Virus record (IMG/VR): IMGVR_UViG_3300017728_000136
Location: 1 to 21,380 of that record
Direction: 5' to 3' (one strand)
Source of the DNA: a virus
DNA length: 21,380 bases
Shown: piece after piece, positions 6,663 to 20,228 of the stretch
Numbering within the stretch: position 1 is the stretch's first letter
Layout: each line of letters begins with the position of its first letter
Notes under the pieces: generated by a model
Database searches by the model: none
What the model saw: only the letters and a program-made list of their open reading frames with translations
Told to the model about the DNA's origin: nothing
Program-made: the position numbers and the translations under genes

Positions 6663-6735
6663 GGGTTGGAAGCGGATGGCATCAGCAGTAACGCTTATAA
6701 CGTTATTTTCGGGAGTTCGAGTCTCCCCCAACCCA
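6663..6735 (+). tRNA. tRNA-Ile (anticodon TAT), atypical D-arm
   Basis: Acceptor GGGTTGG/CCAACCC, anticodon stem TAACG/CGTTA with loop CTTATAA, variable TTTTC and T-arm GGGAG-TTCGAGT-CTCCC are all intact, with discriminator A. The anticodon TAT reads AUA. The D region (6670-6688) is odd: position 8 is A rather than T, and I can form only a two-base-pair GC/GC D-stem. It may be a real but divergent tRNA or a decaying one. Confidence 0.75.
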
Positions 6736-8741: not shown

Positions 8742-9341
8742 ATGAAAAGTGATTTCATTATTGATCCGATCGGTAAGAAAGATGCGGAGGGCTTGCTCCT
8801 TCAGTATCACTATCTCAAGGATCACTCCAAAGGTTTCAAGTCTGGATACAATTATGGACTCTTCAAAGACGAACCAATCTCATCAGAAGGAAGTCTTGGG
8901 GTATGTATTTTCACGGGACTACCAGTTCCCGAATTGGCCCAGTCAGCCTTCGGATTACAACGTGATCAACAGGACGGGCTTTTTGAACTTAGCAGGTTGT
9001 GTCTGCACCCCTCCATCCAACGAAGTGAAAAAAATATGGCGACATGGTTCGTTTCGAGATGTCTGCGAAGGTTGCGACAGACAACTATGGTTAGAGCGGT
9101 CCTGAGTTACGCAGACGCCGACTATCACGAAGGAACCATTTATAGAGCAGCAAATTTTGATTACTATGGAATGACGGCCCCGAAGAAAGACTTCTGGATC
9201 AAACAGGAAGACGGATCATTCGTCAAGCATAGTAGAGGTAAGATGAGCGGACTCGACGGAGAGTGGCGCGATAGAAGTAGGAAGCATCGCTTCCTTATGG
9301 TTTATGATAAGACATTAAATGTTCTTTGGAACAAGGAGTAG
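8742..9341 (+). CDS. mom-like: Mom-like DNA adenine-modification protein (GNAT fold)
   Basis: The 199-residue product resembles phage Mu Mom, which converts adenine in DNA to N6-(methyl)carbamoyl-adenine and so protects against restriction. Supporting features: LLLQYHYLKDHSKG near residues 18-31 with a His-Tyr pair; a GNAT-like core strand GVCIFTG; FELSRLCLHPSIQ near 81-93; and SYADADYHEGTIYRAANFDY near 122-141, matching the family pattern SYAD-x(n)-G-T-I-Y-x-A-x-N. The His/Tyr and Asp match residues I recall as implicated in catalysis or iron binding in Mu Mom, unverified here. The start ATG lies two bases after tRNA-Gly and has no Shine-Dalgarno, and the gene sits behind a terminator, so its expression may depend on read-through and tRNA processing. 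No methylase or com-like gene is seen nearby. Confidence 0.75.
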   Translation: MKSDFIIDPIGKKDAEGLLLQYHYLKDHSKGFKSGYNYGLFKDEPISSEGSLGVCIFTGLPVPELAQSAFGLQRDQQDGLFELSRLCLHPSIQRSEKNMATWFVSRCLRRLRQTTMVRAVLSYADADYHEGTIYRAANFDYYGMTAPKKDFWIKQEDGSFVKHSRGKMSGLDGEWRDRSRKHRFLMVYDKTLNVLWNKE

Positions 9342-9526: not shown

Positions 9527-9554
9527 TTGACAAACCCACCACTACGAGTATAAT
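9527..9554 (+). promoter_or_regulatory. sigma70-type promoter with TTGACAAACC element, driving the ncRNA candidate
   Basis: TTGACA at 9527-9532 and TATAAT at 9549-9554 have a 16-bp spacer and share the ten-base TTGACAAACC. The -10 box is embedded in a perfect palindrome (9544-9560). The predicted transcription start is near 9561. Confidence 0.9.
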
Positions 9555-9560: not shown

Positions 9561-9869
9561 ATGACAAGTGAATAAGAAATAATGTGCGGGAGACTAATTA
9601 CCTCCCACACGGGACTCGCATAATAATCTCCCACGAATGGGGATAGTGCAACCTCCAAATGGTTTAGCGACCTGTCCGTATGATGCAGAAATGCTTGTAT
9701 GAGATGATCCTTAGCGGGATGGGTGGAGGAGTTGAAGCAGGTTACTACCGACATTGTACGTTCGTGCTGCTTCTTTCAGGTATACAATAACCCTGAGTCC
9801 CATTGAATCAACACCGCCGGCGGGCGACCACGGTTTCGACTGCTTGGAACTCGCCGGCGGTTTTCTTTT
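9561..9869 (+). ncRNA. candidate ~310-nt structured noncoding RNA
   Basis: This is the largest gene-free stretch (9507-9882). It has its own promoter and ends in a terminator. A long-range helix GGGACTCG/TGAGTCCC (9611-9618 with 9794-9801) encloses a multibranched domain. Inside it lie GGATAG/CTGTCC (9641-9646 with 9672-9677), a GCA-GAAA-TGC hairpin (9685-9694), TTGTAT/ATACAA (9695-9700 with 9782-9787), ATCC/GGAT (9707-9720) and GAAGCAG/CTGCTTC (9734-9740 with 9767-9773). A 5' hairpin GTGCGGGAG/CTCCCACAC (one mismatch) lies at 9584-9610. These pairs are mutually compatible. I see no ORF with a ribosome-binding site and none of the hallmarks of tmRNA, RNase P RNA or a self-splicing intron. Confidence 0.6.
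9814..9869 (+). terminator. rho-independent terminator ending the ncRNA candidate
   Basis: A nine-base perfect GC stem CCGCCGGCG / CGCCGGCGG (9814-9822 with 9852-9860) and a 29-base loop are followed by TTTTCTTTT. The T-tract runs into the AAGGAG of the next gene, so that gene would be translated only from read-through transcripts or another start. Confidence 0.75.
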
Positions 9870-9882
9870 AAGGAGACTGAAT

Positions 9883-10050
9883 ATGGGTGGACAACACGGC
9901 GCGGGTAAAGGTGATAAATATAGGAAAGTAGATCGGGAAGCGTATTCCAAGAACTACGAAGCAATTTTCGGAAAGAAAAAAGGAAAGAAAACCAATGGTA
10001 AAGATTCTACGACTGACAAGCGGCGAAGAGATTCTCGCAACGGTGACTGA
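9883..10050 (+). CDS. small basic protein (55 aa)
   Basis: ATG 9883 lies seven bases after AAGGAG (9870-9875). The product begins MGGQHGAGKGDKYRKVDREA, contains SKNYEAIFGKKKGKK and ends with many Arg and Asp (STTDKRRRDSRNGD). It is very basic, probably largely disordered, and may bind nucleic acid. I recall similar GxGKGDKYRxVDxxxY proteins in marine T4-like phages, function unknown. Its last 56 bases overlap the next gene in another frame, an unusually long overlap. Confidence 0.68.
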   Translation: MGGQHGAGKGDKYRKVDREAYSKNYEAIFGKKKGKKTNGKDSTTDKRRRDSRNGD

Positions 10051-10300
10051 AGAGGAAACCGAATTCAAGATTGAAAAGCCCTGTCTGATTCTTCCTACGG
10101 GAAATCAGAGTATTGGACTTGCTCCGTGGCTCCCTTATGCGGATCATGATGGGCCTATTACGATCTCGAAGAACTTCATTCTCTTCAGTATCAAGCCCCA
10201 CGATGAACTCATGAATGAGTATAACACGGCGTTCGGTAGCGGTCTCGTTGTTCCTCCCAAGGGAACCGTGAGCGGACCAGCACTTACTCTGACCGAGTAG
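9995..10300 (+). CDS. conserved phage protein, possible Sm/LSm-like fold (101 aa)
   Basis: ATG 9995 is preceded by GGAAAG inside the previous gene. The product begins MVKILRLTSGEEILATVTEE, a first-strand pattern like Sm/LSm proteins (strand, SGEE turn, strand), then IEKPCLIL, APWLPYADHDGPITISKNFI and IKPHDELMNEYNTAFGSGLV. I know homologues as conserved small proteins of marine T4-like phages. An Sm-like fold would suggest RNA binding comparable to Hfq, but the assignment rests on pattern memory and could be wrong. It is encoded immediately after the ncRNA candidate, which fits an RNA-binding role only circumstantially. tRNA-Arg follows six bases after the stop. Confidence 0.7.
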   Translation: MVKILRLTSGEEILATVTEEETEFKIEKPCLILPTGNQSIGLAPWLPYADHDGPITISKNFILFSIKPHDELMNEYNTAFGSGLVVPPKGTVSGPALTLTE

Positions 10301-19325: not shown

Positions 19326-20228
19326 ATGAGTTTCAGCGATTTTAAGAAGCGTTCAGAAGGCAGTCTCGACAATCTCCAGAAGGAGATGGAGGCTAGCGAA
19401 AAGAAGAAGTCATATAAGGATGATCGGCTTTGGCGTCCAGAACTTGACAAGTCTGGTAACGGCTTTGCTGTTATTCGTTTTCTCCCTGCTAGTGATGGAG
19501 AAGACATTCCGTGGGTGAAGGTTTACAACCACGGATTCAAGGGCCCTGGCGGGTGGTACATTGAGAACTCTCTTACCACTCTGGGTCAGAAGGATCCTGT
19601 TTCGGAGATGAACAGTCGTCTCTGGAACAGTGGAGTTGAGTCGGACAAGGACATCGCACGGGATCGCAAGCGACGACTCAGTTATATGTCCAACATTCTG
19701 GTGGTTAGTGATCCCGCAAATCCACAGAACGAGGGCAAGATTTTTCTCTTCAAGTTTGGAAAGAAGATTTTCGACAAGGTTCAGGAAGCAATGAATCCTG
19801 AATTCCAAGATGAAGAGAAGGTGAATCCTTTTGATTATTGGGGTGGCGCAAACTTCAAGTTGAAGGTGCGTAAGGTTTCTGGCTTCGTCAACTACGACAA
19901 GTCTGAGTTCGAGTCTCCCACTGCACTGTACGACGGGGACGATGAACGACTTGAGCGTCTCTGGAAGAGTCAGTACCCCCTTGCAGAGTTCTCGGATCCC
20001 AAGAACTTCAAGTCGTATGACGAACTCAAGGCTCGCCTTGATGAAGTTCTACTGGGTGATGAGCGTGGGGTCGCAAGTGCGGAGCGTGATAATGTGAGTC
20101 ATGATACTTCTGTGAATACTCCGCAGACTCCCACGGAAAACACATCCACCGACGAAGAGGATATCAACAAGTTTGATGAGAGTGCGGACGCCATGTCCTA
20201 CTTCAATTCACTCGCTAGTGACGATTGA
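19326..20228 (+). CDS. 32: single-stranded DNA-binding protein gp32
   Basis: ATG 19326 follows GGAAAGGA. The 300-residue protein has the T4 gp32 order: an N-terminal cooperativity segment (MSFSDFKKRSEGSLDNLQKE), an OB-fold core with GFAVIRFLPASDGEDIPWVK, YNHGFKGPGGWYIENSLTTL, RDRKRRLSYMSNILVVSDPA, GKIFLFKFGKKIFDKV and PFDYWGGANFKLKVRKVSGF, and an acidic C-terminal tail (NTSTDEEDINKFDESADAMS) for protein contacts. It coats single-stranded DNA in replication, recombination and repair, cooperating with UvsX, UvsY and the helicase loader. It lacks every cysteine: where T4 has CPVCQY the sequence is DPVSEMNS, so no zinc is bound, although the NHGF His remains. Promoter, leader hairpins and terminator make it a one-gene unit. 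Confidence 0.95.
   Translation: MSFSDFKKRSEGSLDNLQKEMEASEKKKSYKDDRLWRPELDKSGNGFAVIRFLPASDGEDIPWVKVYNHGFKGPGGWYIENSLTTLGQKDPVSEMNSRLWNSGVESDKDIARDRKRRLSYMSNILVVSDPANPQNEGKIFLFKFGKKIFDKVQEAMNPEFQDEEKVNPFDYWGGANFKLKVRKVSGFVNYDKSEFESPTALYDGDDERLERLWKSQYPLAEFSDPKNFKSYDELKARLDEVLLGDERGVASAERDNVSHDTSVNTPQTPTENTSTDEEDINKFDESADAMSYFNSLASDD

Follow-up and report, generated by a model that had tools for sequence, protein, structure and literature searches.

A divergent manA sister RNA between a promoter and a terminator of its own in a marine T4-like phage

manA RNA and a related locus in a phage fragment

The manA RNA has been known since 2010 as an orphan candidate riboswitch of very abundant marine phages. 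It is typed as Cis-reg in Rfam (RF01745), and the passage devoted to it in Weinberg 2010 presents it as a likely cis-regulator, possibly a riboswitch, found upstream of varied genes (PMC2864571). Two further kinds of structured phage RNA invite comparison. GOLLD and ROOL, of unknown function, are encoded near tRNA islands (PMC12286853), and the gene 32 protein of T4 acts as a repressor of the mRNA that encodes it, at a pseudoknotted 5’ leader; this cis operator consists of a pseudoknot of just ~28 nt and an unstructured stretch (PMC535899).

The locus described here lies in a window (the whole stretch of DNA that was analysed) of 21,380 bases from an IMG/VR virus record. The gp32, Mom-like and tRNA genes of the window indicate that this fragment comes from a marine T4-like phage, the kind of phage in which manA RNAs occur. 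Besides seven tRNAs, it encodes a pyrimidine-dimer glycosylase, a Mom-like protein and a single-strand binding protein of the gp32 type (57% identity to gp32 of Synechococcus phage S-T4). A tRNA-Ile (tat) at 6663-6735, called by ARAGORN and not listed by the Rfam tRNA model at cut-off, overlaps a possible ORF start.

The original prediction had placed at 9561-9869 an unrecognised structured RNA, matching no family, with a promoter and terminator of its own. A comparison of 32 loci supports well the structured non-coding RNA gene with its dedicated signals; its supposed isolation was an error, as the RNA is homologous to manA. At permissive settings, RF01745 matches 9585-9806 over model positions 1-192 without truncation (50.3 bits, E=4.2e-12). 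This score, like that of the best-scoring relative (L008, 52.4 bits), lies below the gathering cut-off of 55.2 bits; L138, L003 and L143 reach 49.4, 46.5 and 42.7 bits, the E-values of these four relatives ranging from 1e-7 to 1e-10. A model built from 29 ordinary manA RNAs (R2) finds 14 loci of the window’s kind (E=6e-8 to 2e-5) and, in the 291 kb searched, nothing beyond them up to E=1. It matches the window at full length (model 1-172, E=2.5e-6), with coordinates exactly those of the window RNA. In the reverse direction, the subfamily model R1 finds an ordinary manA once and weakly (that of P-SSM7, E=0.0019). At E<0.01 the manA model misses the most divergent members of the subfamily (L150, L152 and L156), which are linked to manA only via the window’s group. 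By blastn the region had no counterpart among phage and plasmid records, which is unsurprising in an RNA that evolves fast. Together, the RF01745 and R2 matches make the window RNA a divergent sister of manA that the curated family does not include; for the window’s own group, the homology is secure. The type of RNA is known, and the new element is its context, which includes a promoter and a terminator of its own. The Rfam models of GOLLD and ROOL, both of which are much larger RNAs, do not match the window RNA at E up to 10.

Fold and covariation of the RNA

Pattern scans of viral contigs yielded, among the matches listed, 32 loci of the window’s kind; several are near-identical, so that these loci are not independent counts, and the 23 non-redundant ones form alignment A1. 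The pseudoknotted core of the RNA spans ~220 nt, and the elements of the locus are collected in Table 1.

Table 1 Features of the RNA locus and its surroundings in the window
Feature	Position	Strand	Details
Mom-like DNA-modification protein	8742-9341		Just upstream of the RNA gene; Pfam PF25680, E=8e-21
Sigma70-type promoter	9527-9554	+	TTGACA-16-TATAAT; 12/12 hexamer matches
5’ leader	9562-9575	+	TGACAAGTGAATAA (TGACAAnTGAATAA); apparently unpaired; conserved; read directly from sequences
P1 hairpin	9584-9610	+	9584-9592 with 9602-9610; two-sided changes at each pair counted
Closing helix P0, 5’ strand	9611-9615	+	GGGAC; pairs with 9797-9801; invariant in 23 non-redundant relatives
P2 domain	9618-9649	+	9618-9621/9646-9649; hairpin 9626-9631/9639-9644; AUAAUAA internal loop; corresponds to manA P2
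P3 multibranch domain	9652-9729	+	9652-9657/9724-9729; two-sided changes at 5/6 pairs
P3a hairpin	9661-9672	+	Loop UUAGCG; invariant
P3b hairpin	9685-9694	+	GCA-GAAA-TGC; within P3
P3c hairpin	9707-9720	+	Loop UUAGCG; U-A to C-G change
P4 hairpin	9734-9773	+	9734-9740 with 9767-9773; of the window’s own subgroup; from sequence and fold
Pseudoknot strand in P4 loop	9753-9758	+	AUUGUA; pairs with 9783-9788
P5 hairpin	9776-9796	+	UCAGG-(UAUACAAUAAC)-CCUGA; loop carries pseudoknot strand UACAAU, 9783-9788
Closing helix P0, 3’ strand	9797-9801	+	GUCCC; pairs with 9611-9615
Intrinsic terminator	9813-9869	+	Hairpin 9813-9861, U-tract 9862-9869; -29.0 kcal/mol
Basic 55-aa ORF (context, outside the RNA)	9883-10050	+	MGGQHGAGKGDKYRK...; Shine-Dalgarno AAGGAG
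Sm-like protein gene (context)	9995-10300	+	PDB 3by7, E=7.6e-8; phrog_527, E=2e-19

The single-strand fold has an energy of -104.6 kcal/mol (z=-3.6), better than all 100 shuffles. Standard pairs make up 97.3% of the cells in A1. Two-sided changes affect 101 cells, against 29.5 in shuffled alignments and at most 19 with partners slid; compensatory changes are present in P1, P2, P3, P3b and P3c. Covariation among homologues, which had been proposed as a check, is therefore strong, and it bears directly on whether the region is an RNA gene at all or a protein-coding stretch or chance fold. A 35-codon frame (MQKCLYEMILSG...) is present in the window, but in half of the relatives it is broken by in-frame stops and by indels of a length not divisible by three, so that no protein frame is conserved. 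As the covariation far exceeds both controls, it refutes this reading, to which we attach almost no probability.

A long-range helix had been proposed at 9611-9618/9794-9801, with covariation there as the decisive check. The helix itself stands, but its length is best read as 5 bp rather than 8, the inner three pairs competing with P5. A closing helix of 7 bp, returned by RNAalifold on A1, was also discarded: it costs P5, and inspection of individual sequences favours 5 bp plus P5. Because P0 does not vary within the subfamily, its covariation shows only against ordinary manA, where GGGAG/CUCCC takes the place of GGGAC/GUCCC (last pair G-C instead of C-G). The stem of P5 has compensatory variants (UCAGG/CCUGA vs UCUGG/CCAGA, and GUUGG/CCAAC in ordinary manA). 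The loop-loop pseudoknot between P4 and P5, overlooked in the original prediction, covaries strongly: UUGUA/UACAA, UCGUA/UACGA, CAUGUA/UACAUG and CUUAC/GUAAG occur in the subfamily, AUGUA/UACAU and CUGUA/UACAG in ordinary manA. The predicted GCA-GAAA-TGC hairpin is present as P3b, and nothing points to a catalytic RNA.

The architecture is that of manA RNA throughout: P1, closing helix, P2 with an AAUAA-type internal loop, P3 body, P4 and P5 follow in the same order, the P4 and P5 loops pair, and P5 carries GGUAUACA-N-UAA-Y-CC. Apart from the last pair of the closing helix, the two differ in the branches of P3, which end in two UUAGCG loops in the window and in GUGGUG and UUACCA loops in ordinary manA. 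The UUAGCG hexaloop shared by P3a and P3c is invariant in all 23 relatives. A kissing pair between the two was considered and dropped, the loops not being complementary; their repetition suggests putative paired binding sites.

Promoter, terminator and genomic setting

The perfect sigma70-type promoter and strong terminator of the original prediction were both confirmed (Table 1). Transcription would start at ~9561. The same promoter stands ahead of the RNA in L008, L009, L012-L014, L018, L021, L138, L144, L150, L152, L155 and L156, and about half of the 32 loci have a promoter of their own. In ordinary manA, too, a sigma70 promoter lies immediately ahead of P1. The leader is largely retained in most relatives, including several without the promoter, and could serve as a target-pairing segment. 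In most of the 32 loci a terminator hairpin stands a few nt past the RNA, and it is specific to the locus.

Across the subfamily the core of the RNA is constant while the features upstream and downstream vary: it is found behind its own promoter, in tRNA arrays, behind tmRNA genes or behind a protein gene, and in a single copy per contig (14/14 contigs). A permuted tmRNA gene lies upstream in L010, L137, L143 and L158, its end 144-146 nt from P1, with an intervening short ORF that ends ...REALKRK. In L145 the RNA follows 19 nt behind a one-piece tmRNA. The tmRNA is a separate, adjoining gene, and a tmRNA or a fragment of one was rejected as an identity for the RNA, which has no Rfam tmRNA match. 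A tRNA is the next feature in eight loci (L003, L005, L006, L020, L007, L014, L138 and L150). In L133 (4796-5023) and L134 the RNA lies behind mom, and the mom-like frame terminates within P1, which makes the RNA the 3’ end of that transcript.

These settings bear on the reading in which the RNA is a cis-acting riboswitch or attenuator, sensing a ligand or protein and controlling passage into the small basic and Sm-like genes, or elsewhere into a tRNA. The published view of manA is of this kind, and riboswitches of this type are usually laid out as an aptamer, a terminator and then a gene with a Shine-Dalgarno sequence; moreover, homologues of the small ORF, which sits between the RNA and the Sm-like gene, recur downstream in 22/32 loci and the Sm-like gene in 19/32. 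However, the terminators are strong, those of different groups of loci bear no relation to one another, and nothing suggests an antiterminator: duplex energies between terminator and core are no better than with shuffled arms (mean z +0.31), and no terminator strand was found to pair alternatively with the core as in terminator-type riboswitches. With terminators that are unrelated and lack excess complementarity to the RNA, a terminator/antiterminator switch is not indicated. Furthermore, what lies downstream is variable and often a tRNA, the RNA stands behind a gene of the same unit in L133/L134 and L010/L137/L143, and it remains a single copy per genome as its neighbours change. The 5’-UTR position before a protein gene expected of a cis-regulator does not describe the subfamily, in most of which a terminator intervenes, and applies in part to ordinary manA. 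We therefore regard such a switch as unlikely.

The Sm-like gene raises another question. The protein suspected downstream does match PDB 3by7, and the RNA might be an sRNA partnering it, as bacterial sRNAs do with Hfq, which would be a special case of a free RNA. Besides its presence in 19/32 loci, the gene directly follows manA in L087 and follows manA and a tRNA in S-SSM7. Against this, it is rare near ordinary manA (3/85 contigs among the matches listed), and linkage within one lineage may reflect shared ancestry. The Sm-like protein is a candidate partner, though we consider a dedicated partnership of this kind quite improbable.

For ordinary manA, the pattern scans gave at least 120 matches and, among the matches listed, at least 85 loci in viral contigs (34 non-redundant, alignment A2). 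Each of 12 complete cyanophage genomes has exactly one manA, and the feature that follows is purL, talC, gp32, a tRNA or one of various hypothetical genes. In P-TIM68 the gene after manA is on the opposite strand, and in S-SSM7 a tRNA starts at the last base of manA. Whereas the window’s kind of RNA is followed by a strong terminator and lies in tRNA/tmRNA arrays, ordinary manA usually runs on into a gene. Terminator-like hairpins do follow it in P-HM1 and S-SSM5, CCCUC-UUUUA-GAGGG and a U-tract can be seen by eye in P-SSM7, and a run of six U directly past the closing helix occurs in 11/34 of the non-redundant loci listed, against a background of 0.7%.

The gene most often found closely downstream of ordinary manA, by a wide margin, is gp32 (~46/85 contig loci among the matches listed, e.g. 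L029, L060, L068 and L165), of which the manA passage of Weinberg 2010 makes no mention (PMC2864571). This makes a leader role possible in part of the family, and some manA RNAs may act in this way, judging from gene order. It also calls to mind a cis protein-binding operator like the pseudoknotted T4 leader, relocated in the lineage of this phage. For the window RNA, we hold this to be very unlikely. Although in those loci manA directly precedes gp32, and T4 offers a precedent, the gp32 gene of the window (~19326-20228) is 9.5 kb from the RNA, and the Rfam scan found no manA match ahead of it. In addition, talC, a tRNA or an unrelated gene comes after many of the ordinary manA RNAs, and the T4 pseudoknot is far smaller.

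A proposed free phage RNA and its consequences for manA

We propose, with reasonable confidence, that 9561-9869 encodes a free non-coding RNA of the phage, sister of manA and most likely acting in trans, as the genomic layout suggests. Transcription by the RNA polymerase of the host would begin at the sigma70 promoter, from which expression of the RNA is predicted. The transcript would fold into the P1 hairpin, a closed multibranch body (P0, P2 and P3) and the 3’ hairpins P4 and P5, locked together by their loop-loop pseudoknot, and a constitutive terminator would end it. The folded RNA would then bind a partner and act in trans. Given the tRNA and tmRNA genes in its neighbourhood, the likeliest class of partner would be one linked to the translation or the RNA metabolism of infected cells. 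Three observations weigh against a free RNA. Many ordinary manA RNAs closely precede a gene on the same strand, gp32 above all, which fits a leader; past the terminator of the window stands a gene with a good Shine-Dalgarno sequence, compatible with control by terminator read-through; and the manA model misses L150, L152 and L156.

Together, a subfamily that almost always ends in terminators and a single-copy manA with varied neighbours are better accounted for by an autonomous RNA gene than by the label Cis-reg. A broader proposition, on which we are evenly divided, is that to class all of manA as cis-regulatory is a mistake: in marine T4-like phages it would be a single-copy, trans-acting non-coding RNA gene whose product cooperates with the translation apparatus during infection, and its 3’ end would come from a terminator, from cleavage ahead of a following tRNA or from processing of a longer mRNA. 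The layout of the window RNA is good reason to re-examine the nature of manA RNA. Such a sister form, framed by a promoter and a terminator of its own, along with single-copy manA RNAs before unrelated neighbours, shifts the question from which metabolite manA senses to what a free RNA binds during infection, and this is directly testable in cultured phages, e.g. P-SSM2, P-HM2, P-SSM7 and S-SSM7.
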